Source: Antedon mediterranea
Taxonomy: Eukaryota > Echinodermata > Crinoidea > Comatulida > Antedonidae
Direction of reading: 5' to 3'
DNA length: 64,000 bases
Assembly (NCBI RefSeq): GCF_964355755.1
Contig: NC_092672.1
Coordinates: 10,102,501 to 10,166,500 of the forward strand
Made by a program: the position numbers and the translations under genes. Position 1 is the first letter of the stretch. The number at the start of each line of letters is the position of its first letter. The notes beneath the pieces are model-generated. The model was not told the DNA's origin. It did no database searches and worked only from the letters and a program-made list of their open reading frames with translations. Below are positions 24,890 through 50,130 of the stretch, one piece after another.

Positions 24890-24902
24890 GATTCAGTAAA
24901 AT
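24761..24902 (-). CDS. Caspase coding exon 1 (start codon, first half of CARD)
   Basis: Acceptor TTATTCAACAG, then 13 nt of 5' UTR and ATG at 24889. Encodes MEAAHKKILRTNRITLVSDM, then PMDILNELVARQIF and NTSEDEKYR, ending at a GTTTGT donor. Spacing and hydrophobic pattern match CARD helices 1-3. The start is supported by the duplicated copy at 41376-41235, which has the same ATG, acceptor and donor. Confidence 0.93.
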
Positions 24903-29193: not shown

Positions 29194-29330
29194 CTGGAAC
29201 AATTCTTTAAAAATCAAGCCAATTAGATATAAATTAAGATATTTTATAGGATTTTTTCTGGCTTTTTGTTTCTCAGAATCGAATGTCCTCCTTCCTTTTC
29301 TTCACTAACAGCGCCACCAACCATTAAAAT
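29194..29330 (-). promoter_or_regulatory. 5' UTR exon and promoter-proximal region of the caspase gene
   Basis: A CAG/GTAAAT donor at 29194/29193 follows a stretch that is conserved, donor included, in copy B (42180 to about 42310). The upstream part contains GGTTGGTGGCGCTGTTAGTG. The 3' partner would be the acceptor at 24903. The transcription start is not defined by sequence alone. Conservation in both copies supports a shared 5' leader. Confidence 0.6.
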
Positions 29331-30600: not shown

Positions 30601-30615
30601 ATCAATATTGATATA

Positions 30616-31320
30616 TATATATATATATATATCTCTACCAAGCTACCTTCTTTGTTTTCTACTCTTATTCAGACTCCACCCTGGCTCCCTTTGTTATATT
30701 TCTTTTATTCCTGTCCACCCAGGCAGCACTTGCCAGCTTTATACTATGACGTTATCCATATTCCTTCACTTGCACTGATGAAGGGCTAGTGTTGCCTGAA
30801 AGCTCTGCTAACTTTTCTGGCTGTTTTACTTCTCGTTTTGATTTAGCTTTTCGCTTTTATTTTGTATCTCCATTGAGATCCAGCCACTGATACCCACAGC
30901 ATTGTCATTTTTTTCAGTAATTTGCCTTTGGATTTATATATATTTTCTACTGTTTGTATCAATTTTGATCTGATTTTGCTGTAATTATGGAGGGTACTTT
31001 GGATAACTTTACCAAATTACGTCGCCTATACTATGACGTTATCCAAATTCCTTCACTTGCACTGATGAAGGGCTAGTGTTGCCCGAAAGCTCTGCTAACT
31101 TTTCTGGCTGTTTACTTTATCGTTTTGATTTAGCTTTTTGCTTTTTATTTTTGTATCTCCATTGAGATCCAGCCACTGATACCCACAGCATTGTCATTTT
31201 TTTTAGTAATTTGCCTTTGGATTTATATATAATACTGTAAAAGAAATATAACAAAGGGAGCCAGGGTGGAGTCTGAATAAGAGTATAAAACAAAGAAGGT
31301 AGCTTGGTAGAGATATAAAC
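30616..31320 (+). mobile_element. Penelope-like terminal repeat region with two hammerhead-like motifs
   Basis: Two direct repeats of about 200 bp (about 30740-30955 and 31028-31232) each contain a core CTGATGA, then AGGGC, a loop, GCCC or GCCT, then GAAA (30775-30801 and 31062-31088). This is the arrangement of a hammerhead ribozyme core with stem II. GAAA is followed by GC-TCT-GC-TA, which can form a short stem III with A at the cleavage position; stem I is not convincing. An outer inverted pair (30621-30705 and 31237-31317, e.g. TCTCTACCAAGCTACCTTC) bounds the region. Hammerhead motifs in terminal repeats are known for Penelope-like elements. A third partial repeat lies at 62405-62545. Confidence 0.65.
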
Positions 31321-31384
31321 AATTTGGAATGAGACTAAAAAACAGCTTAAATGGTGATTAATATTGAAACTTAAATTTTGGTAG

Positions 31385-31760
31385 TCAATGGAATAATTTT
31401 ACCGATCTGGGAGTATGTTCCTAATGTTAAGTCCAAAAGGTTTTGTGGTTTTAAGTTGTAATTCTCAGTATTTTTCCTTGTCTTTGCGAGTTTTGTCGCT
31501 CCATTTGACATCATGGTCTATTGCAATAACTCTGAAATTTGCAATCGAGTGACCAGCTGAATTAAAATGTTCGGCTACAGGTTGATCAAGCTTTAATGTT
31601 TTGATAGCTGATCTGTGTTGTGTCATTCTCATACGGAGATGTTTTTTGTTTCTCCGACGTACTGTTTGCCACAAATATTACAGTATATGAGATAAATGAC
31701 GTTTTTGGTTAGACAATTAATTGATTGTCTTATCCGAAATATGCGGCCAGTTTGGTTACT
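31385..31760 (-). pseudogene. Penelope-like element ORF, GIY-YIG endonuclease remnant
   Basis: On the minus strand one frame reads NVIYLIYCNICGKQYVGET, the core of the GIY-YIG endonuclease of Penelope-like retroelements. After a frameshift it continues as LRMRMTQHRSAIKTL, PVAEHFNSAGHSIANFRVIA and DKTRKDKEKYWEL-like sequence. H.N..GHS.....V.A is the typical C-terminal pattern. Frameshifts and loss of the RT domain make it non-functional. Its strand is opposite to the hammerhead-like repeats next to it. Confidence 0.85.
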
Positions 31761-31806
31761 CTTAAATTTTTCAGTAGGCAATTAATATTAATTCGAAACC
31801 GCCCGG

Positions 31807-32347
31807 CGTGGTACGGCGGAACAGCACTAGTCCTCAGTTGTACGCACGCGCACCAGAGATCAAATTGATACGCCCTCATCTTTCTATATTTTTATTCACG
31901 AGGCGGGATCTCCGAAGAGATACTTTTATATATATAAACACATTAGGCAATGAACATTAATTCGAAACCGCCCGGTGATATACCTACATTTAATTAATTA
32001 ATTTGAAACAATAAAGATGAGGAAATCTGTGAAAATGAGAAAAAGTCGCCCCAACAGAGACTCGAACTCGGACCGCCTGCTTGATATGCAGATGTCCTAA
32101 CCATTAGACCACTGGGGCTTTCATGGTATTGTTCAAACTCGATTGGATAGCGACTCTTTAACATTCTCGGCATGGTACGGCGGAACAGCACTAGTCCTCA
32201 GTTGTACACACGCGCACCAGAGATCAAATTGATACGCCCTCATCTTTCAGTATTTTTATTCACGAGGCGGGATCTCCGAAGAGATACTTTTATATATATA
32301 AACACATTAGGCAATGAACATTAATTCGAAACCGCCCAGTGATATAC
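31807..32347. repeat. Two direct repeats of about 180 bp flanking a tRNA-like SINE
   Basis: 31807-31985 and 32168-32347 are nearly identical. They start TGGTACGGCGGAACAGCACT, include CACGAGGCGGGATCTCCGAA and end AATTCGAAACCGCCC plus a short tail. The copies sandwich 31986-32167, which carries the tRNA-like sequence. The whole block is missing from copy B. Confidence 0.75.
32012..32135 (-). mobile_element. tRNA-derived SINE with intact tRNA-like head
   Basis: On the minus strand 32118-32047 forms a 72-nt tRNA-like cloverleaf. The acceptor stem GCCCCAG pairs with TTGGGGC. The D region has TGGTCTAATGGTTAGGACA. The anticodon stem TCTGC/GCAGG encloses loop ATATCAA. The T region has GTTCGAGTC. The anticodon would be ATC, unusual for a functional eukaryotic Asp tRNA, so I read it as a SINE head or tRNA pseudogene. 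Downstream on the same strand comes a tail with CATTTTCACAGATTTCCTCA. A diverged partial copy with the same tail lies at about 35050-35115. Confidence 0.65.
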
Positions 32348-32627
32348 TGAAATTTAATTAATTAATTAATTAATTTGAAATGATACAGATGAGGAAATCT
32401 ATATTATATATATATCTTTTGTAACAAATAATGAAAGGTCTGGTTATTTCTTGCATTTTTAATAAAATACAAAAACTATGCAATTTGTTCATGATTAATA
32501 TGAAAAGATATATATTCTATGATTTAAAAGCAGTTGAGTGACACAAGGCAATGCCTGTATAGCACAACTTAAAATTACTACAGCATTGTTCAACACATTT
32601 CACCTTGGTATCACCTTTATCCGATAC

Positions 32628-32799
32628 TTAATGACGAGCGATGGTGATTGTTGTTACTTTATTCTGCTGGTCTGCTGTTATGTTGCACTCGACTGGAAAT
32701 AAACTTCTGAATGCATCGACACCTAGTGACAATGATTTAAACACTTCATGATCACAAATGAGTTGTTTGCATTCCTTTGTTAATAACACCATATGTTCA
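32628..32799 (-). CDS. OB gene exon 7 (C-terminus)
   Basis: Acceptor TTTTCTTCGACAG. Encodes EHMVLLTKECKQLICDHEVF, then KSLSLGVDAFRSLFPVECNI and TADQQNKVTTITIARH, stop TAA at 32630-32628. The paralogous copy at 47596-47455 is about 90% identical but ends 10 residues earlier through an extra base. Confidence 0.85.
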
Positions 32800-35700
32800 C
32801 TGTCGAAGAAAATTCAAAATAGTAAAGTATGAGAACTTTTGAAATAATTTAAACAAGGGTAATGTTTACATTATGAGCGGTCTGAACGGTTTCATTTAAA
32901 AAGTTTAGAAAATTGGTATATTAGAACTCTAGTATTAAAAGTTATCACTAACACCCGTCTGAAACCGCAAAATGGGATGTCACCTAAACCTGCTCAGTAA
33001 AACAATTGGCTACAATCAAATCAATGTTTTCTCTATGTTTATACTATGTCTATGTATGTTGTGAATATGCCCTTTCAAAAGAAAGTGGACAGGTAAATAG
33101 AGAAGGAGCAGGGTGTGGATAAGAAGTTGGTAAGAAGGATAAGAGGTTTATTGAATGATAAACAAATCTGCAATTGTAATATGAATACAGATCATATTTT
33201 TTGTGGTGTTGTTTCAGACTATTTAGTTTACAGAATTAAACTTACACTGTGGGATCAATACCACAGATGATTTGTTTCACAACTTTAATGCTTTTGTCAG
33301 GAGGTTGAGACAGAATCTGTAGCAAAACAAAATTATTATCAATATGTTAAAGCAACATGTACTTCCGGAGCCTGGGTGTAATTACTTTGGGAGACAAGTA
33401 TGTAACTGGAATGTAGCCTAGTTTTAATTATGTTAGTTTAGGTTGTAATTATAATGTAGGTAGTCTAGGATGTACGGTAATTATAATGTAGGTAGTCTAG
33501 GATGTAATTATAATGTAGGTAGTCTAGGATGTACGGTAATTATAATGTAGGTAGTCTAGGATGTAATTATAATGTAGGTAGTCTAGGATGTAATTATAAT
33601 GTAGGTAGTCTAGGATGTAATGTAATTATGTTAGTCTAGGATGTAATTATAATGTAGGTAGTCTAGGATGTAATTATAATGAAGGTAGTCTAGGATGTAA
33701 TGTAATTATGTTAGTCTGGGATGTAATTATAATGTAGGTAGTCTAGGATGTACGGTAATTATAATGTAGGTAGTCTAGGATGTAATTATAATGTAGGTAG
33801 TCTAGGATGTAATGTAATTATGTTAGTCTGGGATGTAATTATAATGTAGGTAGTCTAGGATGTAATGTAATTATGTTAGTCTATTATTAGTTAATTATTA
33901 TAATTAATAAAGAATAGACTAGGTTGTAATTATAATGTAGCCTAGGATCTAATAATATATTATATAGATTAACAAGAACATATTGTAAAGCATCGGGTGA
34001 AATCCTGAATATCAAATAATTAATTTGATACAATAAAGATTACTCTAGTAGCTAGATCAACTATGCACTTTGAGGTCCAGAGAATTTGACTTCAGAAATT
34101 GGTTTAGGATGGTCAAACAATCATTTTTGGCTTGGTTACACAATATTCAGTCTAATGGCACATTTTAGTCAACAATGACTGGAAATGCCATTTCTGACAT
34201 TTGATTCACAACCCAAGGCATGTACAGTATGTATCTCCGTAACTACTGGTCGTAGACACTTCAATTTGCTCTTAAATTGTTTGAAATATACATTTTGTTA
34301 TTTGTTACACATTTTGAAAAATGTTATAAAAGGTCAAAGGGTCAGGGTTATATGAACAAATATAAATAGGTACTTGTATCTTGGCAACCACTGGTCGCAG
34401 CAAGTTAATTTTGGTCTCAAAATGTTCAGAAGGCAGACAATTCAGTCTAATGGGACATTTTAGTCAAAAATAATCAGAAATGCAATTTCTGACCTTTGAC
34501 CCACATACTAGGGCATCTTCATATCTATGTAAGTACTGTTCGTAGAAACTTAAATGTTGTATCAAATTGTTCGAAATATATATATTTAGATTCATTCTAA
34601 TAGAAAATTTGGTTAAATGATGACCAGAAATACTATTAATTACTAATGTTTCAAACAAAAAACATATCTGTATACAACTTATCCTTGGACAGTAATGTTA
34701 TGTAATAACTTATGCTTAAAAATTGTTTCATTATAGGATTTAAAACAAATTTTTGTAATTGTATTTTTGCTTATAATAATGCTAGAAAGTATTGTTGACC
34801 CCCGAGGACGATCAAACATTTTGATAGAAACATCGAGCCCAAGAAGTAACTTACCGAATTCATCCTAATAAACGCCTATTGGTGTTTGGTCTTATAACCT
34901 TTCAACCTGACCTTTTGACCTTTCACCACATTTTCAAAATGTGTAACAAGCCAAAAATGATTGTTTGACCATGCTAAACCAATTTCTGAAGTCAAATTCT
35001 CTTGACCTCAAAGCTCATACAAAAGTTTATCTACAGTAACTACTAGAGTAGATGAGGAAATCTGTGAGAACGAGCAAAAGCCGCCTCAACCAAGATTCAA
35101 ACTTGGAACTTTCTGCTTTAATAATAATTTGAAGAAGTTACCTCTAGGCGTGTAAGATTCGTTGTTTTTAATTCTGGTTTTTGTTTAAACATATCCACTT
35201 CGACATTAGTGAAGAGGAATGTTGCACCATCATGCTCTTCAGTAATTTCATCAGCCTTTTCACCCCAGAGTTTTAATTTAATTGTTGAATTTGTGTTTTT
35301 TAAAACCATATCACGGCGTTGCCAAGGGGTAATTTTTTCTCCAATTTCTTTTTCTCCGATCTGTTTTAAAAAAAAACAAAAAAACATCAGTATAACAGAA
35401 GGTTTGTTAATAGTCTTTTGGAAATATAATATATAGCACCCTCTATAATTTTTCGAAAAATGTTAAGATATTTGCAATTCATTAAAAATATTTTTTAGCA
35501 CAACATGCACCCTCTATGTGTGTTGATATCGTCTTGAAGTTTCAATTTCAACAACCCTGTGAGGAATTAGATATCACATGTTATAATCATTTCGACATTG
35601 TATTATTAGCGATAATGCCGCAAAAACATCCTCCAGTTACCAAATTTTACCCACCCCAATAGGACAATATCGTGTTCATCGTAATATGCAAAAAAAAATT

Positions 35701-38700
35701 CTGAAATAATAAAAAACCCAAAACTTTGATTTATGCGAACTTTTTTATAAACGATAAAATAATTCAAATTGTTTTGCTTTTATTTATTATATATTATTAT
35801 ATATTTACCGTACTGACGCGGGTATAAGCCCATACTCGGGTATAAGCCCACCCCCGACTTTTGACTAATTTTCATGAAAAATGAGGCACTCGGGTATAAG
35901 CCCACCCATTAATTCGAAGATCTACAGTGTGTGTCGTAATACATATTTTTGTATTTGGCGACGTCCATACACCGAATACACCTACCTTTGATCATAACCA
36001 AGCTAGGCTAATATACGCTAGGCCATAAGAGGCCTAGCGGTCCTGTTTTGTTTACACTCCATCGCGGTCGAAGATCGCTTCACACACGACGCTACATACA
36101 AGTCGCCAAAACGGAAAACCACTATTTGGTATCGGCTGCCATAAACAAGCTTATTAAATTTCTTTGGTACATTTCTATTTAACGAACATTGTATACTTGC
36201 TTTTCTGCTTGATAAATTCTTGTTCAATTGATGTTTAAAATAAGATATTCTACGATAAATTACATGAACTATAAGCTTAATTAATAATCGTGTATTTAGA
36301 GGCAACGTCGTACACGTGAGGGCGCTCGCTTGCATGGTGGAAATACACAGTGTACATGTGCAGTTTTTGACGATCTGCATTTTTGGATCCTCGGGTATAA
36401 GCCCACCCCCCAAACTTGACGTGATTTCATGTTCGAGGGGGGTGAGCTTATACCCGCGTCAGTACGGTATATATTCCATAAGAATTTCATATAAGAAAAC
36501 ATAGTTTTAATCATTGAATTGACAAAAAACAGGAATTCCAAAATAGCTGTAATGACGTCACATGACATCATTAATATGCAAATTACCTTTTTTTACTCCC
36601 AACTGTAGACCAACCTTTTGCCCACCACACACCACAAAAATAATTACAAAATTATCTCATTTAGTATCTTTTATGACAGTCAGGGTTCGAAAATCACCCT
36701 AACAATTTGCAAGTATATTTTGTTTTTTTTCTAGTTACAAATTTAATAGTTATAATGTTTGCTGGTTACTATTAATGTATGGTTGGATATTGATATGAAA
36801 TAGTTTGAATGATTTTGGAAAACTGATTGAAAACAAAATAATATTGTAACTTACCATTGTAACTTTTCCTTGGATAGTGACTCGTCTTCTTTTGGGGCTT
36901 CTCACTGCCTCCTCAATGCTCACCTCATCTGGAGTAAAAAATTTGTTCAATTTTTCTTGTGGGATTTCAAAATCATTGTTTCCCCCTTGAAACACCTGTA
37001 AAGTAAAAAAAAGTAGTAATGATTTGAATACAAATTGGTTCAGTAATTTTGGGTGTCTAAATACCAGAGGTAAAGTTCAACTGCACAGTATGTGAATGTG
37101 GAGTTTGACTGCCAGAGGATTTAAGAGAAATCAATAATTAAATGGTAATCATTTACCTTGGATGTTCCTTTTTTAATTATCAATTCCTGTGTGTTTTCTT
37201 TGAAACGTAGTGTTGCATTTGTTACTATTTTGTAGTCATCTTTTGTAATCTTTTTAACAAATGGAACGTTTTTTGCTGATACTATTCCTCGTAAATATTC
37301 TGATTTGTCATTAAAGGCATGAAATTCCCAGTAGGTTCCATGGTCAGCAGGAGGTGTTAAAACATATATGTATATCATTTCCATATACTAAAAGAAAGAA
37401 TTGATCGTTATCAAATCATGTGATCAAATGAACACTGTATCACATTGTACATTGGGTGTGTAGTGTGTAGGAACATTTTTAAGTTAATTTATTTGATCAG
37501 TCACAGAGTCACAGTGCCACATGTTACAGTTACATATTTAAAAAAAAAGTAGAGTGACTCTACAATATGACACGCTCTTCAGGATAGTATTTCATCTGTA
37601 TATTATTATAAGCTGGGTTAAAAACATTCTGTTAGGGTATGTTCAGATCCATGGAGTTATGCTTTCGTATCGCAAGCAATGTCACATTATAATTATCATA
37701 ACTGTAACAGCAAACTAATGCTTTCTTTAGAAACTGAAGAAGTCCAATTTGGGCGAGCATCTGGTATGCAGGTTGGAGGTCAAAATCGTTGATGCATGAC
37801 TTTCATATTGTAAGCATCGTTCGCTAATCTTCTGCCTTGAGATGATGAACGAAAGATCAGTGTTGTAAGAGTAAAGTAATCTTTTCCTGGTTCAAACCTA
37901 TGGAGTTGTACAATATGAAAGCACAACTCCGTAGGTCTCAACAGGCCCTTAGTGTTGGAATCCAGATGAAATTTAAAATTGATCAGATCTCACCCTTGAT
38001 ACATGAATGTGTGTTATGCATTATGAATATTTTGAAGAAAATATAAAAGCCCATGGGCTATTCAAAGGGGGACGTTTGTAACTACAGCAATATGCCCATT
38101 TTTTATAAAAGCCACTAGTACTTAAGGGACACTTTTCCTATACTCACTTTGTCTTGTTGAATTGCAGTGTTTGAAGAAACTAAAGATAAGAGAGAAAAAA
38201 AGTAATGGAAAAATACTGCAATAAAAACATTTTCAAAACAATATCATGAGTAACAATAACAATTTTTAAAATCTGTATGGCCAAACGATAAAAGTATGCA
38301 TTTTGTCAGTTCACCACTGAAGTCCATTTAGAATTAAAGTATGGAGAATACACATTCTTAGCAACTGAAGTTATAGTACTGTACTGTCAAAGACTATCAG
38401 AAAAAAATCGTTGATTGCTTTCTTCTGAACTTATTTCACAGCATACAACAACAACCAAGCCACGGACTGGCCAAACAGCTGAACCAACATAATGAAGCAA
38501 ATATATGAGAGTCTATGGTTGAGGCAGAATTAAGATTTCTTTTTAGGTAAAAATTGTGATAAACCACTGAAATTATCAAGCAAAACTTCATCACAGCATG
38601 GGTCCCTTAATAACGCACATAGCATAATGTCACTGTGTCGTGATCGTATCCATACACAGTACTGTAGGTAGTTTTTAATACAGTATATTTTGATTACATT

Positions 38701-39254
38701 GCATTCACTAAGAGTAACGCATAATTTTGTCTTTTCCCTTAAACAGCAAGTGTGTAGTACACTACATGATCCACTAACTTTTATGTTGGTTCAATAGAGT
38801 TTGCTATGTTTTTCGGAGGTTTGCAGGGTTTAGCAATTAATTTTTAACCAAAAAATGATGTTTTACTCCAAAAATAAGTAGTTAACAAAAACAATTTAAC
38901 ATTAAAAAAAAAATTGAAATATTAGGTGTGTAGTACACTACACGATTCACTAGCTTTTATGTTGGTTCGATGGGGTTTGCTATGTTTTTTCGGAGGTTTG
39001 CTGTGTTTAGCAATACCCCCAGTAAGTTTTGCCAACTTCAAATTATTCTTCAGATTATAGTACAGTTAGAAGTAGTTAACAGGATTACAATGGCAGAAAA
39101 TTCAAAAGAACAACAGTCTTTCTAGATAAATCAAAAAAATTAATAACAGAGCTATGATATACATTACCATCAGCCAAGACTTGTCTTGTGGCATTCCAAT
39201 TTCTACCCCGCTTCTGCAGCACCTTGCTTGTCTCCAACTGGCTGGCTTTCATTA
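32628..39254 (-). CDS. OB-fold (RPA-like) protein of unrecognised family, seven exons
   Basis: Exons: 39254-39168 (ATG at 39252), 38179-38148, 37387-37157, 36995-36855, 35360-35142, 33316-33246, 32799-32628. All have GT/AG ends, phases agree, and the CDS is 951 nt (316 residues). Around residues 39-120 lies FHAFNDKSEYLRGIVSAKNV. Later KRRRVTIQGKVTMIGEKEIG, TPWQRRDMVLKNTNSTIKLK and LWGEKADEI follow the pattern of RPA-type OB folds (V.I.G.V..., RRD..L.D......LWGE.A). Single-strand nucleic-acid binding is therefore plausible but not shown. No zinc site or catalytic motif was seen. The first exon is the least certain; it derives from a CARD-exon copy. The last two exons are duplicated at 49.3-47.5 kb. 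Confidence 0.8.
33246..33316 (-). CDS. OB gene exon 6
   Basis: Acceptor TTTGTTTTGCTACAG, donor GTAAGT. Encodes ILSQPPDKSIKVVKQIICGI then DPT, ending in phase 2, which exon 7 completes. The copy-B version (49326-49256) has the same length and splice sites with seven changed residues. Confidence 0.85.
33420..33960. repeat. Minisatellite, about 27-bp unit, OB gene intron 5, copy A
   Basis: About 18 tandem units of the type GTAATTATAATGTAGGTAGT followed by CTAGGAT, with shorter variants lacking the TAATGTAG part. The same array occurs at 49440-50130 in copy B with more variants, so it predates the segmental duplication. Confidence 0.9.
34045..35055. mobile_element. Element with long (about 100-bp) inverted ends in OB gene intron 5
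   Basis: The left end (about 34045-34145) has GAGAATTTGACTTCAGAAAT, TGGTTTAGGATGGTCAAACA and ATCATTTTTGGCTTG. The right end (about 34945-35055) is the reverse complement with a few changes. The interior has repeated motifs such as AGTCTAATGG and TCAGAAATG but no coding capacity. It is absent from copy B because that region was lost there. Confidence 0.7.
35056..35115 (-). mobile_element. Truncated tRNA-SINE fragment
   Basis: On the plus strand GATGAGGAAATCTGTGAGAA, then GCAAAAGCCGCCTCAAC and ATTCAAACTTGGAAC parallel the SINE at 32012-32135 (GATGAGGAAATCTGTGAAAA, then GTCGCCCCAAC and ACTCGAACTCGGACC). It keeps the tail and B-box side only. Confidence 0.6.
35142..35360 (-). CDS. OB gene exon 5 (OB-fold core)
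   Basis: Acceptor in a T-rich tract ending AAAACAG, donor GTAACT, 73 codons in phase 0. Encodes IGEKEIGEKITPWQRRDMVL, then KNTNSTIKLKLWGEKADEIT, and GATFLFTNVEVDMFKQKPEL before LKTTNLTRLE. W.RRD..L.......KL.LWGE matches the second half of RPA-type OB folds. Confidence 0.88.
35806..36469. mobile_element. TIR element, about 664 bp, in OB gene intron 4
   Basis: The ends TACCGTACTGACGCGGGTAT (35806) and ATACCCGCGTCAGTACGGTA (36469) are perfect inverted repeats that extend into AAGC. Subterminal CTCGGGTATAAGCCCACCC repeats occur near both ends (three left, one or two right). No transposase was recognised. A TA target duplication is possible but ambiguous. Confidence 0.85.
36855..36995 (-). CDS. 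OB gene exon 4
   Basis: Acceptor TTTACAG, donor GTAAGT, 47 codons in phase 0. Encodes VFQGGNNDFEIPQEKLNKFF, then TPDEVSIEEAVRSPKRRRVT and IQGKVTM. It contains a basic KRRR stretch just before the predicted first strand of the OB fold. Confidence 0.87.
37157..37387 (-). CDS. OB gene exon 3
   Basis: Acceptor ending CTTTTAG, donor GTAAAT, 77 codons in phase 0. Encodes YMEMIYIYVLTPPADHGTYW, then EFHAFNDKSEYLRGIVSAKN, ITKDDYKIVTNATLRFKENT and QELIIKKGTSK. It could itself be a first, more divergent OB-like module; that is inference. Confidence 0.86.
38148..38179 (-). CDS. OB gene exon 2 (microexon)
   Basis: Only 32 nt. Acceptor TTATCTTTAG, donor GTGAGT. With the last base of exon 1 it encodes VSSNTAIQQDK. 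Small, but both splice sites are good and its phases (1 in, 0 out) bridge exons 1 and 3 exactly. Confidence 0.6.
38748..39022. repeat. Two direct copies of an AGTACACTAC-type repeat
   Basis: 38748-38850 and 38927-39022 share GTGTAGTACACTAC, CACTA.CTTTTATGTTGGTTC and TTCGGAGGTTTGC followed by GTTTAGCAAT. The end GTTTAGCAATACCCCC resembles the terminus of the element at 48514-49060, so they may be related. Confidence 0.5.
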
Positions 39255-39300
39255 CTGAAATCATAAAAACTTAACATATAATTTATCTTCAGTGAGGTCT
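39168..39300 (-). CDS. OB gene exon 1, built on a relic of the CARD exon
   Basis: On the minus strand 39300-39168 is a degraded copy of the second half of caspase coding exon 2: CCTCACTGAAGATAAATTAT against CCTTACTGAAGATACATTGT, then a GTTGGAGACAAGC block, GCAGAAG, and the same G/GTAATG donor in the same phase. Stops block the CARD frame. A different frame is open from ATG at 39252: MKASQLETSKVLQKRGRNWN then ATRQVLAD. A new acceptor TTTATGATTTCAG precedes it at 39255. Phase fits exon 2. The start is plausible but unproven. A further exon ending ..TSEIDK at a GTAGGT donor near 39383 may be upstream leader. Confidence 0.55.
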
Positions 39301-39383
39301 GATATCTATATAAAGTATGGTTAATTCTGACATAGGCGAGCACAATGCAAAAACCTCGGTACAAATCTGCGCCTTGGATACCT

Positions 39384-40560
39384 ACCTTATCTATCTCAGA
39401 TGTACCGCGAAACGTAGATTTGATAACATTAATTTTCACATCGACGCTATTGTTCCATATTTCTATCTTAGGAAGATATTATAAAGGGTTTTATAGGAAA
39501 TTTTCTGATTTCAATCGGTAAATTTTAACTCTACGCGCAGTAGAAGTAATTTCCGGGTTAACGGTCAGGTGTGTCAATCACCTTGCAAGTTCCCTGCATG
39601 GTTGGTGTCAACCAGGGAGTTGTAAAACAACTCCCTGTTTCAACTAAGTTGGTGCTTGGTGGCGATAGCCATTTTGGTTTTTTGTTTATTTTCGGACCGC
39701 GCGTGTGAAGGTATAGTACTGTAGTACATAAAGATCAAATTAAATATATTCATAAAAAATTGGAGTATTATTGTGGGAAATAATTATATAAAATTACATC
39801 GAGAGAATTGATGATAAGAGCTTTTGTTTAAGATCGAATGAAACCCCGATAGCCGAGTTGTTGAGTAAGCTGCCAGGACTCATGGATGGATACTTCTGCC
39901 CATATTGCAAGCCGTCTAAAAGGTCTTCCTTCTTAGGCCAAAACGACTCACTGTGTTGCGGAATAATATGTATTAACTATACCGATTAGAATGGTATTTA
40001 TTTGAATAAACGCCCGGAACACCTCCCCAATAAAACATCAATTAAAATAATTATCACCACTCTCCTCCCCCCCCCCCCCTCCAATACCATCTAATTAACG
40101 CCCATCCCAATTTATACACACAATATTGTATTATATTTATAACACAATTATACTATTTTTTAGTAGATTTCATCGGACTGTTATCTACAATTTACCAAGC
40201 ATTTGTTATTCTTTTTTACCACTTTTCATATCTACAATAAACACTATACGTAAAACGCTATTAATCATCTAAAACACTGTGAAACAGGTTAGTGAGTAGG
40301 TTTAGTTTTACGAATATCAAAAGCATTTAAATAATGGTAACCGATCGAAATCGTCCAGGCCAGAATGTCCTTCTAAAACTTTTTACCAGAGTCACTATCA
40401 TTCCGAGAACCATGGTCTACACTTCCTAGAGGGGGAGCAAGCGAAGCGAGCTCACCCTCTAGTTAATATAAAGTATAGCTAAATGCTGAGACCCAGTAAA
40501 AACAAATGATTGCCGTTTGGTGGCAGCTAAAGGATTGATGCAACGAAATATAATCCACAG
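39384..40560. other. Region between the OB gene and the CARD-only gene
   Basis: Relatively CpG-rich around 39520-39720 (CTACGCGCAG, GGACCGCGCGTG), which may be the OB gene promoter. At 39842-39960 a plus-strand sequence CCCGATAGCCGAGTTGTTGA has a weak tRNA-like look (possible SINE). A short hairpin, CTAGAGGGGGAGCAAG with GAGCTCACCCTCTAG, lies near 40425-40462. A poly-C run is near 40070. The left junction of the tandem duplication should lie near 40.5 kb. Confidence 0.45.
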
Positions 40561-40575
40561 CGATTTAAGATGGTG

Positions 40576-40581
40576 TTTATT
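40576..40581 (-). terminator. Candidate polyadenylation signal of the CARD-only gene
   Basis: AATAAA on the minus strand, 12 nt past the TAG stop at 40596-40594. In the caspase copy the matching place is intron sequence just after the exon 2 donor. A motif this short occurs often in AT-rich DNA, so it is only suggestive. Confidence 0.35.
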
Positions 40582-40593
40582 ATCTATTATTAT

Positions 40594-41376
40594 CTATAAC
40601 ACCCTGAGACTTCTTGTTGGAAACTTGCCTTCTGCAACACTCTGCTGCACAGGTGGCTTGTCTCCAACACTTGATTGTTTGGTATCATTTTCAAATTCAT
40701 AATAGCTTAAATCGTACAATGTATCTTCAGTAAGGTCTGGTATTAAAATTGTAGCTAAATGGTGCGCCTCTGCAAATAATGACTCAGCTAGTGCACGGAA
40801 TGCCTTTGGCCCTTTATGAATAATATTATTTAAGATTGCTGTATTTCGAGCAGTTGTTCCATTCAGACCCTATAAAAAAAGAAATTATGAGAAAAATATT
40901 ACAATTTGACTTTGGAAATTCATCTGTGCACAAGAGATGATTTCTGTTGTTTTTTTATAACATTTGTTAATATTTTGAAAACATAAAAGACATTCTATGC
41001 CTAGTATCCAGATTAATATGTTGGCATAAATGGTTTTTATAAAATCAATTTTTCTCATTTTTCCAATTTTAAAGATTGTAGCAAAGGAAAAAAAGTGGTA
41101 ATTTCCTAAATTAATTTATAATTTTGTAGTAAAATACTGTATGTTTAGTTTAATTACAAGGTAACCAGTATTATATTTCAATTATTTAAGAACCTGTACA
41201 TCTTTTGTATTATTGGGTTAACAATCCTACAAACCAAGAATTTTTCTTGTTCAGATGGCTTAAAAATTTGTCTGGTCACTAATTCGTTCAAGACATCAAT
41301 GTGCATATCGTTAATTAATGACATACGATTCTTTCGCAGAATCTTCTTGTGTTTAGCTTCCATGATTCAGTAAAAT
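40594..41376 (-). CDS. CARD-only protein, paralogue of the caspase prodomain
   Basis: Two coding exons: 41363-41235 (MEAKHKKILRKNRMSLINDM, then HIDVLNELVTRQIF and KPSEQEKFL) and 40869-40594 (GLNGTTARNTAILNNIIHKG, PKAFRALAESLFAEAHHLAT, then KPPVQQSVAEGKFPTRSLRV and L). The CDS is 405 nt, 134 residues, no internal stop. Acceptors and the exon 1 donor match the caspase copy. The exon 2 donor G/GTAATG of the caspase has become GTGTTA, the frame shifts by one near the end, and TAG follows at once, so the product is a CARD with a short tail and no protease domains. A duplicated 5' UTR exon lies at 42180-42310. It could bind the caspase CARD or an adaptor and compete. Alternatively it is a young pseudogene that happens to be open. 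Confidence 0.8.
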
Positions 41377-42179
41377 CTGTAAATAAATAATTTAATTCTA
41401 ATTATTATTAATTCACTGAATATTTTAACAAGTTTTATTAGAATGAGTTAACTTTTTGGGAACCTTATTCAATCAATATAATAATATTACCATACAGTTA
41501 GTGTTAATATAGTATAATGATGACTTATGACTTAAAAATACAATAAAAATAATACTGTACAGTATGTGTATAGATTATTCACAATTTGATCACTTAAATT
41601 AAAGAAACACAACAATATTTAAACTCTTCTTCCTACACTTACAGTATGTATTGATCAGTAACTATATTCAGTCAGTATACAGTACAGTACCTAACACCTA
41701 TAATGCCTTTCATTAATAATTATTTAAAAAGTACAAGTCAGTCACGATGAAATCAACTTTGGATGGAGCACTGCTTTTAGATACCGCCTAGGCCTAGATA
41801 CTGTAGGCCTAGGCCTAGTACACGATTATTTTTTTTATACTTTTCTTTTAATTTACTTTTTTTTTAAACCATTTGTTGTAACTGGAATCATTTTAAAAGC
41901 ATATTAGTAATTACAGTAAGTACTGCAAATGTAATCTAGGCCTAGGCCTAGTCCTACCGGCCAATCACTCTTCTCGGCTCGGGGTTAAGCTATGCCTACT
42001 AGCCTACACTAACTAAGTACAGAGGCTAGGCCTAGGCCTACTACTACTACCAACAGGGCCCAGCCCAGACAGGGGTGTCACGAAACCTAAGATCACGAAA
42101 GCTAAGACCCAAGAACTAAGATTACAAATAAACACTATAAATCTAGTATAGACTAATGTATTGATAAAACAGCATTTAC

Positions 42180-42310
42180 CTGGACCAATTCTTTAAAAAG
42201 CAAGCAAATTAGATATAAATTCAACTACTGTATTTTAAAGGATATTTTCTGGCGCGGCTTTGTTGCTTTGTTGCTTTTTCCTTTTCTTTACTCCACTAAC
42301 AGCGCCACCA
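42180..42310 (-). promoter_or_regulatory. 5' UTR exon and promoter-proximal region of the CARD-only gene
   Basis: Counterpart of 29194-29330, with the same CAG/GTAAAT donor (exon edge 42180) and the same AGCGCCACCAACCA block on the plus strand upstream. Splicing to the acceptor before 41376 would give the leader. It suggests the CARD-only copy kept the caspase promoter. Confidence 0.55.
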
Positions 42311-42526
42311 ACCACTAACATTAGTCTTTATGGGACGTCAAAAGGGACATTATAATTCAATTGTTACAAGAGTCAAGTGTTGATGGTACTTTATGAATTG
42401 ATACAGTTACTAGCTTAAACAATTCATTTTTGTCTATATTCGTAATGTTCTAATTGTTGTCAAAGATAGTGTAGTTTTTATTATTAGTGTACAAACAATT
42501 TAATAGACAAATTCATTCATTTCATG

Positions 42527-44029
42527 TAGAATTTTGTTGGAGACTGCTAGTGTTATTGCGACTCCTTTAGCCCGTCTATTTCAGAGATGTTTTGACGAAA
42601 ATTATGTTCCTCCTTTATGGAAGAAAGCCAATGTTTCCCCTATTTTTAAAAAAGGATCTAAGAAATCACCGGCAAACTATAGGCCTGTTAGTTTAACTTC
42701 CCATTTTTGTAAATTGATGGAATCTGTCTTGAGGGATGACATTATTGATTATCTTGACTCGTTACATTTACTGAATACATCCCAACATGGGTTCTTGAAA
42801 GGAAGATCTTGTCTGACAAATTTACTAATGTTTCTTGAGAAGGTGACATATGATATTGACCAGGGTTTACCAGTAGATGTAATTTATTTTGATTTCCAAA
42901 AGGCCTTCGACAAAGTTTCTCATGTAAGGTTGATGAATAAAGTTTTGGCTCATGGTATTGAAGGTCCATTTGGCATGTGGATACAAAACTGGCTTAGTGA
43001 TAGATCTCAAAGGGTTGTTGTGAATGGTAGGAAATCTGAGTGGGCCCCTGTTCATAGTGGTGTGCCTCAGGGTTCGGTCCTCGGACCGGTGCTTTTTCTC
43101 ATTTTTATTGATGACATAGATTTTTCCATTGATTCTTCATTGTTGAAATTTGCTGATGACATTAAATTGTTTGGAAGTGTGCGTTCCGAGGTTGATCCTG
43201 AAGTACTACAAAATGATATTGACAAGTTATCACTTTGGTGTCGTGAATCCCTAATGAGCTTTAATAGTAGTAAATGCTATGTCATGCACCTAGGATTTAA
43301 TAATCCGAATCATTCTTATGAACTTGATGGGGTTATCCTAAATGAAGTAACAGAACAAAAAGACTTGGGAGTGATTATTGATAAATCTCTTAAGACTAGT
43401 AAACAATGTGTAGCAGCAGCCAAAACAGCTAATCGAGTTTTAGGTACTATTAAAAGATCCATTAAATATAAATCAGTTGATATGATTAAATCGCTTTATA
43501 TTGGATTAGTCAGGCCTCATCTAGAATTTGCAGTCCAGGCATGGTCTCCTCAACTAAGGAAAGACATTCTTTTATTAGAAAAAGTTCAGAGGAGAGCAAC
43601 TAGGCTACCACCTAGTTTGCATGGCATGCCCTATGCAGATAGGTTAAAAGTTTTTAATTTAACAACCTTAGAAGAAAGACGACACAGAGGGGACATGATT
43701 CAAACATATAATTTTCTTTCTAACAAAGAGGCTATTGATAGTGATTTACTTTTTCAAAAGTCTGAATATACCGCCACTAGGGGTCATAAACATAAATTGA
43801 AAAAGAATAATGCTCGATTAAATTGCCGTAGTCATTTTTTTACCCAACGAGTCGTAAATTCATGGAATGCTCTCCCTGCCACAGTACAGTAGAAGTTGAC
43901 ACAACCATACTATTTAAAAGAAAATTTCAGAAGACGAGGGGGGCTAATAGAGGGCCACGACCGGCCCACCAGCCTCTTGCACCACTCATTTAGAGTGGTG
44001 TACGGTGAGTTACGGTGAGTTACGGTGAG
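42527..44029 (+). mobile_element. CR1-like LINE, 5'-truncated, with intact RT frame
   Basis: The frame is open from the truncation point to a stop at 43890 (about 452 residues). RT motifs in order: NYRPVSLTSHFCKLMESVLR, QHGFLKGRSCLTNL, VIYFDFQKAFDKVSH, NWLSDRSQRVVVNG, HSGVPQGSVLGPVLFLIFID and the catalytic FADD in LLKFADDIKLFG. Then EFAVQAWSPQ, LLEKVQRRATR and a basic tail. The endonuclease and ORF1 are missing. The 3' end carries three copies of a GAGTTACGGT unit (about 44003-44029) rather than poly(A), as CR1/L2-type LINEs do with their own short repeats. Copy A has the empty site near 29520. Confidence 0.92.
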
Positions 44030-44301
44030 ATTACACTTTATTGACTAGAGTATTACATTATACAATATCTTCTTAGCCTTTTTTGATTTATTTTTTTTAT
44101 TTTTAAAAGTTATTCATTATAAAAGTTTTACAGTTAACAAATGCAAACGATGGAAAATAAAATCCATGACAAAGTGACATTACAATGAATATATTTATCA
44201 TTACAATAAACTTCCATGTTCCTAGTTTAGGAACATTGCCAAACTGATCACTTACATAACATTAAAAAAGGAACAGAAAATTGGCATTAAAGTGTAACTC
44301 C

Positions 44302-45080
44302 ATTAATAAATTATACCCATCCATAAAGGTGGTGAGGTCTCAAATATCAATAACTATAGGCCCATCTCCATCTTGCCAACTATTTCAAAACTACTTGAAA
44401 GAATAGTTTATGATCAAACTATTTCATTTCTTACAAAGTTTAACATCCTCAGCAATTCCCAGTTTGGTTTTCGTTCCCAACATATCTACAATACATGCCG
44501 TCCATCATTCAATCCATAATATTTTGTCTGCTATTGATAATAAACAATTTACTGTAGGAGTTTTTATTGACCTGTCAAAGGCTTTTGATTGTATTTCTCA
44601 TAATATTTTAATTAACAAGCTACGTTTCTATGGTATAAGAGGTATACCACTTCAGTGGTTCGAAAATTATTTAAGTAACAGCCAGACATCAATTTACATC
44701 AACAATCAATGATATTGCCTCTGAGCTGCGGCCAGTTTCGTGTGGTGTTCCACAGGGATCCATCCTTGGTCCGCTTTTATTTCTGTTATTTATTAATGAT
44801 TTAAATTGTATTAGTGATTGTGCTGAAATTGTTATGTTTGCAGATGATACAAGTTTATTTATTAATCATAAGGACATCTACCAAGCTATTATTTTAATGA
44901 ATCGTGAACTTACTAAAATTGCAAACTGGTTAAAATCTAATAAGCTTTCGTTAAATATTAAAAAAACCAAATTTATTATTTTTCGTTCAGTAAATAAACT
45001 AATCCCCCCCCAACATTCCTAAATTTATAATTCGGTTACATTTAGGAATATATTTAGTTATTACCATAATAGATTCAATC
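44302..45080 (+). mobile_element. LINE RT fragment, broken, inserted in copy B
   Basis: RT motifs across two frames: INNYRPISILPTISKLLE, VGVFIDLSKAFDCISHN, NKLRFYGIRGIPLQWFENYL, then a stop, then SCGVPQGSILGPLLFLLFIN and VMFADDTSLFINH with NWLKSNKLSLNIKKTKF. A premature stop near 44710 breaks it. Different lineage from the CR1-like copy. No endonuclease or 3' end of its own, since it runs directly into the reversed LINE tail. Confidence 0.85.
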
Positions 45081-45550
45081 AATCAATCAATCAATTCAAT
45101 TTTATTTCTCAAATAAAAACAAAATACAGTTACATTTTCTAGAAATAATAGATAATAAATGAGAAAAAGGGTACCCCACTGGAAGCTTAAGCTTTAAAAT
45201 GTGGGGTCCAGGCAACATATTTAAAATTAAGGTAAGGTAAGAAATATATATAATTATATGATAATGAACAAAAAAGACATTTAACTTAACAAATGCAGTT
45301 ATAATTTAACTTAAGACAGATATATTATTAACTTAAACAAAAATAGTAGAAACAAGGTATTCATGTAATTTGAACTTAAATGAAGATATAAAATTAATAA
45401 TTTTGAGTTCTTCAGGTAAAGAATTCCATATTTGTGGTCCTTGAAAAGATATATCATGCTTGCCAACCTCCGTATTAAAACAATCATAAGCATAATCTAA
45501 TTTATTTCTGGTATTATAAATTATAAATATTTTATTTTATAATCATAAGC
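45080..45550 (-). mobile_element. LINE 3' end with (TTGA)n tail, reversed
   Basis: On the minus strand: RNKLDYAYDCFNTEVGKHDI, then SFQGPQIWNSLPEELKIINF, SSFKFKLHEYL and a stop. FQGP.IWNSLP..L.....F..FK..L..YL is the usual C-terminus of LINE ORF2. About 200 bp of 3' UTR and a run of TTGA units (about 45078-45095) follow. The tail-to-tail arrangement with 44302-45080 may be a twin-priming-type inversion of one insertion, since copy A lacks both. Confidence 0.8.
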
Positions 45551-46274
45551 TTGTTTCAAATCCTATATAAATAATCTCGATTTTCTTTGATGAGTTCAAA
45601 ATACGCGCACACATTTTCGAACGGTATGAAATCATTCGGAAATTAAATGTTCATATAAAAATAATAGTAATATCAAATTATGTAAATAAATGATTCACAT
45701 CTTTGCCTAAAAAAAAAAAATAGTTTAGGCCTACTGTTTTTTATAAATTCAAAAGCAAATGAGTAGTGGAGTGGGTGGATCTCGAATACAAATAAAATAT
45801 ATTGCATGCCAAAAATAATAATAAATTGCAGGCCTTACTCAGTATGAGTGTTTATAATAATACAGTATATATATTTAACACCACCCCAGCCACCCGCTCC
45901 ACTTCTGCAAAATGAGGAAAAAATAATGTTTTCTACACCCAACCTGTACTCAGAAGACACGTTTGAGTGTGCCAAATGGTTGATTCAGAGGTCACCAAAA
46001 ACATCAAAACATTTTTATTTATTTATTTTGTTATCTATTTAATACAAAAATGGATATCATGATAATTATGATAATAATTATGATACTTCCTCTGGCTTGA
46101 CAATGACAGTTTTCATGGTGAAACACTCAGAATGAACCCCTTTAAAAATAATTGGGTGCTGCAGGATTTACTGATTTTCAACAACTTACAAACACAAACC
46201 AAAAACCTATTCCTAATACAAAATAGTATTTTGGTTTTTCGTTCCATTTGGAGTAATGAAGGCTGTTGAAATTA

Positions 46275-46855
46275 TTCAATTAATTAATTAATTTAAAAAA
46301 TAAAATATTTGTATATGAAGAAAAACATCCAATAAAAATGTTTTTAAAATTTTCTTCAATAATTATATTTTACATTATAGTAAAATGATTAATAGTAACT
46401 ATCTCTAATGGTTTGCTTCTTTGCACTATCCTGTGGTGTATGAAATGGCAAAACTGCATTTTGTAAACATGGCAACATCACCAGAATACATTAAGTACAA
46501 AATACTGTACAATAAAACTAATTACAGAGCTATACTGGCAGGATAACTTAATTTTAAAAATATAATATTTGTATCTGAAGATCAACATGAACATTTCTCA
46601 TCCAATAAAAATGTTTTTAAAATTTGCTTCAATAATTATATTATTTACATTATAGTAAAATAATTAATAGTAATTAATACTATCTCAATGGTTTGCTACT
46701 TTAAACTATCCTGTGATGTATGAAATGGCAAAACTGCATTTTGTAAACATGGCAACATCACCAGAATACATTATTGCAGTAAAGTACACTACTGTACAAT
46801 AACATTACTAAACTAATATTACAGAGCTAGACTGGCAGGATAATTTAATTCAACA
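46275..46855. repeat. Tandem duplication of about 280 bp, copy B only
   Basis: 46290-46550 and 46558-46850 are near-identical (both contain ACATCCAATAAAAATG or TCATCCAATAAAAATG, CTTCAATAATTATA and CTGCATTTTGTAAACATGGC). Copy A has one version (about 30300-30545). The duplication happened after the segmental duplication or was lost in copy A. Confidence 0.75.
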
Positions 46856-46974
46856 AAAAACATGGCAATTTTTTAGAATCTTTTCTTTTAAAACATAACC
46901 TGTACATAAAAAAAAACTAAACATAATTAAGCGTTTTCATTACAACACAAGCATCTAGAAACAGCGATAATGTG

Positions 46975-47110
46975 TATCTAGTGCGGCGGCCCATACAAAT
47001 TAGCGCGACTAAAATAAAACATGACTGATATCAACCGTAACTAATATGATAAAAAGCGTATCTAGCTAATGCTGGACTGAAATGTCCTGTATTTGTCTGC
47101 CTCTCCCGGC
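46975..47110. repeat. Remnant related to the inner part of the 25.6-28.5 kb composite
   Basis: CATACAAATTAGCGCGACTA, then AAAATAAAACATGACTGATATC and GATAAAAAGCGTATCTAGC closely match 28165-28245 (CATATACAAATTAGTGCGAC and onward). The flanks differ from that element, so it is a separate insertion of the same family. Confidence 0.65.
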
Positions 47111-47454
47111 CCCACCCTTAGATCTGTTTGTATGTTTCCTACAATGCTTACATACATAAGCACTGAATCAATATTGATATAAATCTTTTGTAAAAATAAT
47201 GAAAGGTTCTATGGTATTTCTTGCATTTTTAATAAAACGAAAAAACTATGCAATTTGTTCATGATTTAGTATGAAAAGATATAATCTATAATTTAAAAGC
47301 AGTTGAACAATACAACACAACTTAAATTGATTACAACATTCCCAGTGTTTTAGTGGATACACGTTCCTATAAGGTATTGTGCTCTTGTTGTTGCCCATAA
47401 CAGGAAAAGCAATCCACTGAAACTTAATGACGAACGATGCTGATTGTTGTTACT

Positions 47455-49326
47455 TTAGTTCTGCTGGTCTGCTGTTACGTTGCACTCGACTGGAAATAAA
47501 CTTCTGAATGAATCGATGCCTAGTGACAATGATTTAAACACTTCATGATCACAAATGAGCTGTTTGCATTCTTTTGTTAATAACACCATATGTTCACTGT
47601 CGAAGAAAATGAAAAATAGTAAAGTATGAGAACTTTTGAAATAATTTAAACACGGGTAATGTTTACAGTATGAGCGGTCTAAAAGTTTCATTTAAAATGT
47701 GTAGAAAATTGGTATATAAGAACTCTAGTATTAAAGATGTATTGTTCCTAAAAACACAGAAAATGAAGATTAATATAAAAACATCTACAAAATTACAAGA
47801 TAAAATTATCTTCTTGACTTCCTGTTGTACTGGATGATACCGGAGGGAATAAAGGATTTAGCAAATCGATTTGTTTTCACACTGAGGAGCCTCAATCTAC
47901 CACTTGGATTAAGTTGGTCTATGATCACTTTGTGCAGAGGATGAGAGGCATGCGTTCAAAATCTTTCTGGAGGCGTTCTATGTGCACATCGGTAAAGAAA
48001 GGCAGTTCCAGACCAATCAAATCCCAATTGGCTGCTGACAGCCAATTTTACCATTTTATGGTTTAAATTACACTTGTTTTTAAGGTAAATATATATTTTT
48101 TTTTCGATCTAATTTTTTGTAAAAGTGAATAACTATTATTATGTAACAATAAAATTGCTTATTCAACAAAAAAAATTTTTTTCAGGGGGACAATACATCT
48201 TTAAAAGTCTATCCACAACACCAATATGAAACTGCAAAATGGGACATCACCTAACCTGCTCAGTAAACTTAGATTTACATAAAGCAATTGGCTACAACCA
48301 GATGGATGCTTTCTATATGCTATTGTGAATATGCCCTTGGAATTCTTGTAAAGTGTAAACACATAAATAGAGGAGCAGGGCATTGATAAGATCATATATG
48401 GCAAACAGGTAGCTGTAGCAATGTTTTAAACACTTTATGAACACAAAGAACTCTAGAATTAAAAATGTATTGTTCCCCAAAAACATGGAAAATAGGCCAT
48501 TTGCAGCTTTAATAGGGTATTGCTAAACTGCGCAAACCTAAAAAAACCTGCGCAAACCTCCTCCAAATCACTTATTATTGGTTCTATCATGACAAGGACT
48601 ATCATAGCAAGTAATTAATGAAAAAAAAAATGAGGAGGAGGTTTGCGCAGGTTTTTTTTCAGGTTTGCGCGATTTACACTGTAAAATCTGACATTTTACC
48701 CAAAAAAATGATGGTTTTCGCCAAAAAAAAAAGCCAACTTACAGCAATTTCATAATTTTGTTTTCATAAATTATTTGCTATGATAATCCTAGTCATGATA
48801 GAACCAATAATAAGTGATTTGGAAGAGGTTTGAGCAGGTTTTTTTTAGGTTTGCGCGATTTACACTGTAATATCTGACATTTTTACCCAAAAAATGATGT
48901 TTTTCGCCCCACTTACAGCAATTTCATAATTTTTTTTTTCATAAATTACCTGCTACGACAGTCCTGGTCATGATAGAACCAATAATAAGCCATTTGGAGG
49001 AGGTTTGCACAGGTTGTTTTTTAGGTTTGCGCTTGGTTTGCGTAGTTTAGCAATACCCCTTTAATAAAATTAATCACTTTAGTTGAAAAAAAACACTTTG
49101 TTTTCAATAATAAAAAGACAAAATAAACAGAAGAGGATTATTGAATGATTATTGAATGAATGATAAATAAATCTGCAATTGTAATATAAATACAGGTCAT
49201 ATTGTTTGTATCATTGTTTCAGACTACAGTATTTAGTTTAGCGAATAAAACTTACACTGTGGGATCAATACCATCGATGTTTTGTTTCATAACTGGAATG
49301 TTTTTGTCGGGTGGTTTAGACAGGTT
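47455..49326 (-). pseudogene. OB gene copy B, last two exons only
   Basis: 49326-49256 (NLSKPPDKNIPVMKQNIDGI) and 47596-47455 (EHMVLLTKECKQLICDHEVF and on to ECNVTADQQN) copy OB gene exons 6 and 7 with the same splice sites. An extra C near 47458 ends the frame at QQN, 10 residues before the copy-A end. Exons 1-5 are not seen upstream; beyond about 50.13 kb the sequence changes to LINE. It is probably a 5'-truncated, non-functional copy. Confidence 0.85.
48514..49060. mobile_element. Inverted-repeat element with GGTTTGCGCAGG-type ends
   Basis: The left end GGGTATTGCTAAACTGCGCA, followed by AACCTAAAAAAACCTGCGC, is mirrored by TTTAGGTTTGCGCTTGG then TTTGCGTAGTTTAGCAATAC. The interior holds two direct copies of a block with AGGTTTGCGCGATTTACACTG and CCAATAATAAG..ATTTGGA. 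Non-coding; copy B only, within the last intron of the OB pseudogene. Confidence 0.75.
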
Positions 49327-49439
49327 CTGTAGTACAGTAATTGCAAGCAAAACAAAATTATTATCAATATGTTAAGGAAACGTGTACTTCGGGAGCCTGG
49401 GATGTAATTACTTCGAGAGAAAAGAATGTAACTGTCTAG

Positions 49440-50130
49440 AATGCAGCCTAGGTTTTAATTATGCTAGTCTAGGATGTAATTATAATGTTAGTCTAACATG
49501 TAATTAAAATGTTAGTCTAAGATGTAAATTATAAAGTTAGTTTAGAATGTTTATAATATATAAGTCTAGGATATAAATATAATGTTGGTCTAGGTTGTAA
49601 TTATAATGTAGGTAGTCTAGAATGTAATTAAAATGTTAGTCTAGGTTGTAATTATAATGTTAGTCTATGTTGTAATTATAATGTAAGTAGTCTAGGATGT
49701 AATTATGTTAGTCTAGGTTGTAATTATAATGTAGGTAGTCTAGGATGTAATTATAATGTAAGTAGTCTAGGATGTAATTATGTTAGTCTAGGATGTAATT
49801 ATAATGTAGGTAGACTAGGATTTAATTATGTTAGTCTAGGATGTAATTATAATGTAGGTAGTCTAGGATGTAATTATGTTAGTCTAGGTTGTAATTATAA
49901 TGTAGGTAGTCTAGGATGTAATTATAATGTAAGTAGTCTAGGATGTAATTATGTTAGTCTAGGTTGTAATTACAATGTAGGTAGACTAGGATTTAATTAT
50001 GTTAGTCTAGGATGTAATTATAATGTAGGTAGTCTAGGATGTAATTATAATGTAGGTAGTCTAGGATGTAATTATAATGTAGGTAGTCTAGGATGAAATT
50101 ATGTTAGTCTAGGTTGTAATTAAAATGTAG
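49440..50130. repeat. Minisatellite, about 27-bp unit, copy B
   Basis: Over 20 imperfect units built from GTAATTATAATGTAGGTAGT plus CTAGGAT and shorter GTAATTATGTTAGTCTAGG forms. Counterpart of 33420-33960. It marks the last sequence shared by the two duplicated segments on this side. Confidence 0.9.

Follow-up and report, generated by a model that had tools for sequence, protein, structure and literature searches.

The locus described here raises the question of whether a partial duplicate of a caspase gene, lying beside its parent, encodes a free CARD that regulates the caspase, a CARD spliced to something else, or nothing that still matters. The copy lies at 42.5-40.6 kb on the minus strand of the window, the 64-kb stretch of Antedon mediterranea DNA that was analyzed, and comprises caspase promoter-proximal DNA, a 5' UTR exon and both CARD exons. 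As the best single reading, and a tentative one, we propose that it is a CARD-only competitor of the parent caspase.

The CARD copy, its parent and the duplication that links them

The promoter-proximal DNA and 5' UTR exon of the copy (42143-42526, minus strand) match the caspase promoter/UTR region 29156-29525 with 80.7% identity over 398 aligned columns, and the following DNA matches the caspase CARD region 24141-25254 with 84.5% identity over 1,152 aligned columns, both far above chance. The UTR-exon donor after 42180, CCAG/GTAAAT (the slash marks the exon-intron boundary), is identical in copy and parent. CARD exon 1 (41235-41376, minus strand) has an ACAG acceptor, a GTTTGT donor and an ATG at 41363, giving the coding segment 41363-41235, and CARD exon 2 (40594-40869, minus strand) runs to a stop at 40596-40594, past the old donor position, which reads GTGTTA at 40602. 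A poly(A)-like signal AATAAA follows at 40576-40581 on the same strand, 12 nt past the stop. These splice signals and the frame are directly established: the joins 42180/41376 and 41235/40869 yield exactly 134 codons and then a stop. The sequence-only reading had therefore given correct coordinates and codon count, and its anatomy of the copy and its assignment to a caspase parent are likewise right. The predicted product scores as a CARD (PF00619, 36.7 bits, E 4.3e-9, cut-off 23.9, profile positions 2-82 of 85), compared with 37.7 bits for the parent, and an alignment of the two CARDs over 89 columns shows the same residue in 64; a scan of the copy against NCBIfam gave no match.

The parent gene (10403-29194, minus strand) has a UTR exon ending at 29194, two CARD coding exons (24889-24761 and 24396-24093) and three further exons up to the p20 part (22459-22374, 21526-21359 and 19816-19600, the last with QACRG). 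These first five coding exons join stop-free. The linker and the start of p10 (in 18199-17969), an exon at 16624-16517 and the last exon at 10507-10403 were placed by match to a paralogue, L001; the matches are stop-free, the joins are candidates, and the p10 and last exons are 72% and 80% identical to L001. Pfam finds Peptidase_C14 at 124 bits in the N-terminal part of the parent protein and at 37.6 bits in the p10 exon. The gene thus has an N-terminal CARD in two exons, a p20 with QACxG and a p10, as a caspase-2/9-type initiator does. In oyster caspases and vertebrate caspase-2 and -9 the CARD is reported to be split over two exons, as opposed to one exon in vertebrate caspase-1, -4 and -5 (PMC7836458). 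A profile built from copy, parent and paralogue finds 37 sequences at E <= 1 and ranks the CARDs of caspase-9, Apaf-1, CED-3 and RAIDD ahead of that of caspase-1. Because of the two-exon CARD, the QACRG site and this ranking, the parent looks like a caspase-2/9-type initiator rather than caspase-1. Judged by these features, the copy does not share its descent with human CARD16/17/18.

The introns of the parent hold further rearrangements. A recent inverted copy of its CARD exon 2 (21904-22191, plus strand, 97.6% identity) lies between the exons ending at 22374 and starting at 21526, ~1.9 kb downstream of the exon that it copies and within one primary transcript. The two could therefore pair into a ~290-bp hairpin in the pre-mRNA, with a possible effect on splicing or editing. 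Degenerate repeats of a caspase exon piece encoding KLPSHSDMLLAYATVPG occupy 17418-18022, in the parent's following intron. The first intron contains a ~3 kb insertion at 25588-28536 with terminal inverted repeats (86.7% over 188 columns), not seen in the copy's intron.

Self-comparison of the window directly establishes a segmental duplication of ~10 kb, 50.13-40.56 kb deriving from 33.96-24.02 kb, at one end of which the copy lies. The duplicated unit (unit A, 40560-50130) contains the last two exons of an OB-fold gene (49326-49253 and 47598-47427), intergenic DNA, the caspase promoter-proximal DNA, the UTR exon and CARD exons 1 and 2, in blastn blocks colinear with 33957-24141; the source (unit B, 24025-33957) has the same order and strand and runs on into the caspase protease exons. 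The 3' breakpoint of the alignment falls ~60 bp past CARD exon 2. A tandem duplicate of the caspase 5' end, as first proposed, is thus confirmed, but as part of a far larger duplication that includes two OB-fold exons.

Unit A has since received two insertions within 42527-45754, at 42527-44028 and 44298-45754, with duplicated DNA (44029-44297) between them; the flanking blocks are adjacent in unit B (29525/29528 and 29778/29782). The first insertion carries a 461-codon reverse-transcriptase frame on the plus strand (RVT_1, 8.4e-32), and the second is reverse-transcriptase-like by eye only. Measured from the copy's UTR-exon donor, they start 0.35 and 2.1 kb upstream. The suggestion that the copy inherited the parental promoter consequently holds for the ~345 bp upstream of this donor, which are contiguous with the source (52 differences in the 360 aligned bases of this block), but not for the inserted DNA beyond; another 1.5 kb separates this stretch from the next segment of the source.

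In noncoding DNA, units A and B differ at 193 of 1,692 aligned bases and by 34 indels, seven of which are multiples of 3; these counts leave out the poorly aligned part of the CARD intron (40905-40990, or 40990-40870 in the noncoding total), and the total also leaves out a minisatellite, the blocks of unit A at 46.3-47.2 kb and both blocks that hold OB exons. The noncoding difference amounts to 11.4%, and for this reason we set aside the idea of a haplotype artefact.

A genome-wide search for further copies returned 10 places at E <= 10, comprising five at this locus (two exons each of copy and parent, and the inverted copy), two at paralogue L001 and three others at 27-32% identity; it misses a fossil of CARD exon 2 at 39.2 kb and is therefore not exhaustive. 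Elsewhere in the genome (G000) we observed five CARD-caspase frames that lack introns, span 276-278 codons and have match scores that are equal or nearly so. They are found at C4:16.56-16.58 Mb (L006 780-1613, L008, L009), with like frames at C3:17.09, C3:25.29, C4:16.72 and C9:14.17 Mb. The DNA around the one examined is dense with genes on both strands and includes a frame for an IAP with three BIRs and a RING (BIR 4.7e-47) and a kinase-like frame below cut-off, which has the appearance of a virus-like multicopy element that bears a CARD-caspase as well as an IAP. A CARD gene cluster at C4:0.86-0.88 Mb consists of three tandem CARD frames (L004 2293-2619 and 6467-6802, and L005 1644-2048); the genome-wide caspase-domain search gave no match there, and the frames downstream look coiled-coil by eye, the one scanned matching no family. 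Eight tandem caspase-domain matches lie at C5:22.03-22.14 Mb, with no CARD match nearby among the best candidates listed.

Frame retention, substitution and possible gene conversion

The copy could be a decaying partial duplicate, dead or nearly so, that is still open because it is young and has been converted by the parent's sequence; we hold this to be possible, if on the unlikely side. Substitutions in the 128 codons compared between copy and parent give it some room. CARD exon 1 has 17.5 nonsynonymous and 1.5 synonymous changes (dN/dS 3.05) and CARD exon 2 has 10 and 8 (dN/dS 0.34), which together make 27.5 and 9.5 changes and a dN/dS of 0.77. A codon model of three branches that takes L001 as the outgroup rejects omega = 1 on neither branch, with 2dlnL of 1.47, 0.28 and 0.08 for the copy branch; it is weakly informative, as the outgroup length and some omegas sit at their bounds. 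The sequence-only reading had named a dN/dS near 1 with disabling variants in other individuals as evidence against a functional copy; the first half of this is what we find.

Divergence in exon 2 (18/255) is lower than in noncoding DNA (p 0.04) and its nonsynonymous changes are few for the number of sites (p 0.03), which favours function; divergence in exon 1 (19/129) is no lower than noncoding (p 0.25), which favours decay. The nonsynonymous sites of exon 1 compare with noncoding DNA at p 0.08 (0.02 with a smaller noncoding set). Positive selection in exon 1 is not claimed, given the 1.5 synonymous changes there and probabilities of 0.09 for S <= 1 of 19 and 0.26 for S <= 2. Polarization by L001 assigns four of six residue changes to the parent and two to the copy, and 12 of 19 base changes to the parent and seven to the copy. 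Since the copy has two polarized residue changes and the parent four, the copy does not appear to be evolving faster than its parent, as judged against L001, which speaks against decay.

The coding gaps bear on the same issue. Relative to the parent the copy lacks 3, 9 and 24 nt. Within its last seven codons it is the parent that shows gaps, of 1 and 4 nt, and there the frame changes, a feature that fits decay; the placement of all these gaps is alignment-dependent. The 3-nt gap is a deletion in the copy, because L001 has the parent's length there, as is the 24-nt gap, because the fossil exon holds most of that stretch; the 9-nt gap is unpolarized. Three of the five gaps are multiples of 3 (p 0.063 against the 7/34 in the noncoding DNA of the duplication), as are all three of those before the last eight codons (p 0.009). 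In neutral simulations, the ATG, the 128-codon frame and eight splice bases were all retained in 1.0%, 4.8% and 10.5% of runs with the indel rate set, relative to the pairwise noncoding rate, at 1/2 (the plain expectation), 1/4 and 1/8, respectively; a second calibration gave 0.4-11%. Frame retention, in-frame gaps and the direction of polarized changes thus count against decay, although the locus was chosen for its open frame and the figures therefore overstate that case.

Two further kinds of evidence favour decay. The first is debris: insertions interrupt the copy's upstream region, and other exon 2 fragments at the locus are frameshifted (39.3-39.17 kb) or inverted (21.9-22.2 kb). The second is patchy divergence. 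Copy and parent differ at 1 of 130 aligned bases in the 3' half of exon 2 (40,748-40,619) and at 1 of 122 in the intron before exon 1 (41,690-41,569); when the differences were scattered at random 5,000 times across the 1,110 aligned bases, a run of 130 never arose, although a badly aligned block inflates the difference count. These near-identical stretches suggest gene conversion, a confounder that could keep a dead copy young and account for the low divergence of exon 2; conversion between CASP1 and CARD16/17 has been described (PMC11383037). Overall, frame retention, in-frame gaps and the lack of acceleration appear to lean to function, and the substitutions do not decide.

The end of CARD exon 2 and possible onward splicing

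The parent leaves CARD exon 2 in phase 1 at GTAATG, whereas the copy has GTGTTA at this place and a TAG two codons on, a change with a nearby stop that the earlier reading had reported and that we read directly in both copies. The fossil of exon 2 (39168-39305, minus strand), an older and frameshifted piece with 70.9% blastn identity over 103 columns, retains G/GTAATG; because it does, GTAATG is the ancestral state and the copy the changed side.

The loss of this donor does not lead safely to a CARD-only product. By fusing GCAGAAG to GCAAGT, the 24-nt deletion created a perfect GC-type donor, AAG/GCAAGT (40623-40631, minus strand), which would end the exon at 40629 in the ancestral phase 1, 26 bases before the lost donor. 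The minus strand of the window has no second perfect GC donor, and the plus strand has one. The pattern AAG/GCAAGT occurs 3,814 times genome-wide versus 1,791 for the reversed control, about twice as often, a rough sign that GC donors are in use in this genome. Read straight on, the frame stops after 134 codons and before any protease domain, as the earlier reading expected, but transcripts could instead be spliced onward from 40629.

Under onward splicing, which we consider rather unlikely, the CARD would join either an OB-fold gene or, as an alternative-CARD isoform, the parent's own protease exons. The OB-fold gene lies between copy and parent (32628-38179, minus strand; exons 37387-37157, 36995-36855, 35360-35142, 33316-33245 and 32798-32628), preceded by a candidate mini-exon at 38179-38148 on the same strand that was read from splice signals only. 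Its domain assignment is tentative, as REPA_OB_2 scores only below cut-off (17.9 and 16.3 versus 27 bits). In the self-comparison its 5' exons are found once, between copy and parent, and not in unit A. The duplicated last exon (47427-47598 versus 32631-32801) differs at 8 of 171 aligned bases and by one 1-nt gap near the end, a low divergence that either constraint or gene conversion could explain.

Both the mini-exon and the parent's next exon need phase-1 input, just what the GC donor would supply. In addition, the fossil CARD exon 2 upstream of the OB-fold gene is open in another frame (39270-39085) from an ATG to its phase-1 G/GTAATG donor, and could now serve as the first exon of that gene. 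Against onward splicing, the stop and AATAAA stand 33 and 48 nt past the GC donor, and the mini-exon is a candidate only. GC-AG introns are a small minority of introns. The protease-isoform version would moreover require an intron spanning the whole OB-fold gene. For three of the 28 OB relatives outside the window (L002, L003 and L007), the surrounding ~10 kb was searched with the copy's CARD and gave no match at E <= 1. One of these three is Helitron-like by eye and has no Pfam match.

The specific proposal that the copied CARD is a new N-terminus of the OB-fold gene, with the copied promoter, UTR and CARD exons spliced from 40629 to 38179-38148 and on to the OB exons, is improbable. AIM2 consists of a PYD plus OB folds. 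If the proposal were true, a CARD-OB protein beside a CARD-caspase would amount to a sensor-protease gene pair of independent assembly that brings to mind AIM2 and caspase-1, and the older fossil of CARD exon 2 would represent an earlier round of the same capture.

A proposed CARD-only competitor and its parallels

We return to the CARD-only competitor as the preferred reading. A ~10-kb segmental duplication, truncated ~60 bp past CARD exon 2, left an upstream copy of the promoter-proximal DNA, the UTR exon and both CARD exons, and loss of the old donor would have made exon 2 terminal. We infer that transcription starting at the copied promoter would yield messages that finish with the stop and AATAAA and encode a 134-residue CARD-only protein, which might bind the parent's CARD or its recruiting platform and so compete with, or cap, assembly. 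The likeliest action of such a protein, should it be produced, would be competition between CARDs or the capping of filaments; filament capping has been reported for CARD17 (PMC7555848). The ATG, the splice signals of both introns and the 134-codon frame are intact, the ancestral donor is lost with a stop and AATAAA after it, and a target exists, because the parent keeps its CARD, p20, p10 and last exon. The failure to reject omega = 1, the conversion-like stretches, the GC donor and the inserted DNA 0.35 kb upstream of the UTR-exon donor weigh against this reading.

That the free CARD has another job, such as binding bacteria directly as an antibacterial or seeding the parent caspase and so activating it, is highly improbable. 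In favour of such a job, the net charge of the copy's CARD is +4 and that of the parent's 0, sea cucumber AjCASPX2 has a CARD reported to bind bacteria and to inhibit their growth (PMC11121444), and CARD16 and CARD18 are reported to promote as well as inhibit caspase-1 assembly. Against it, the charge difference is mostly unpolarized, and L001 at +3 suggests that the basic state may be ancestral. On the direction of the effect of CARD16 and CARD18, the reports themselves disagree (PMC7555848, PMC11383037).

Among the closest known parallels are human CARD16, CARD17 and CARD18 (COP, INCA and ICEBERG), whose origin by CASP1 duplication, stated in the earlier reading, agrees with PMC11383037. As described there and in PMC7555848, they are protease-less CARDs duplicated beside the parent caspase, as the copy is predicted to be, with similar upstream DNA, and their locus shows gene conversion and pseudogenes. 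Their parent is caspase-1 with a one-exon CARD, whereas the parent here is an initiator caspase with a two-exon CARD and QACRG; the copy, unlike CARD16-18, also has an alternative GC donor.

C. elegans CSP-3 and the Aedes decoy caspase retain protease parts rather than a CARD. They resemble the copy as invertebrate caspase duplicates proposed to regulate a paralogue: CSP-3 is reported to be without an active site, with an anti-apoptotic effect that was not replicated (PMC3591282), and the Aedes decoy enhances its paralogue, according to a title cited in PMC3141678. Iridovirus GIV-CARD is a stand-alone 91-residue CARD reported as anti-apoptotic (PMC4457926), but it is viral and, unlike the copy, has no adjoining parent caspase. 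Among RIG-like receptors and IPS1, parts of CARDs were reportedly duplicated into new gene contexts in a cluster, as here (PMC4565553); those CARDs became domains of larger proteins, whereas the copy's frame soon ends at a stop if splicing does not take the GC donor. Among the open-access papers listed, we found no report of an invertebrate CARD-only caspase duplicate.

The copy, with its parent alongside, offers a compact test case. If it is spliced onward, the same duplication would show the capture of a CARD by a new gene. If it is expressed as a CARD-only protein, stand-alone CARD regulators would arise by partial duplication from an apoptotic-type initiator too, and not just from caspase-1 in primates.
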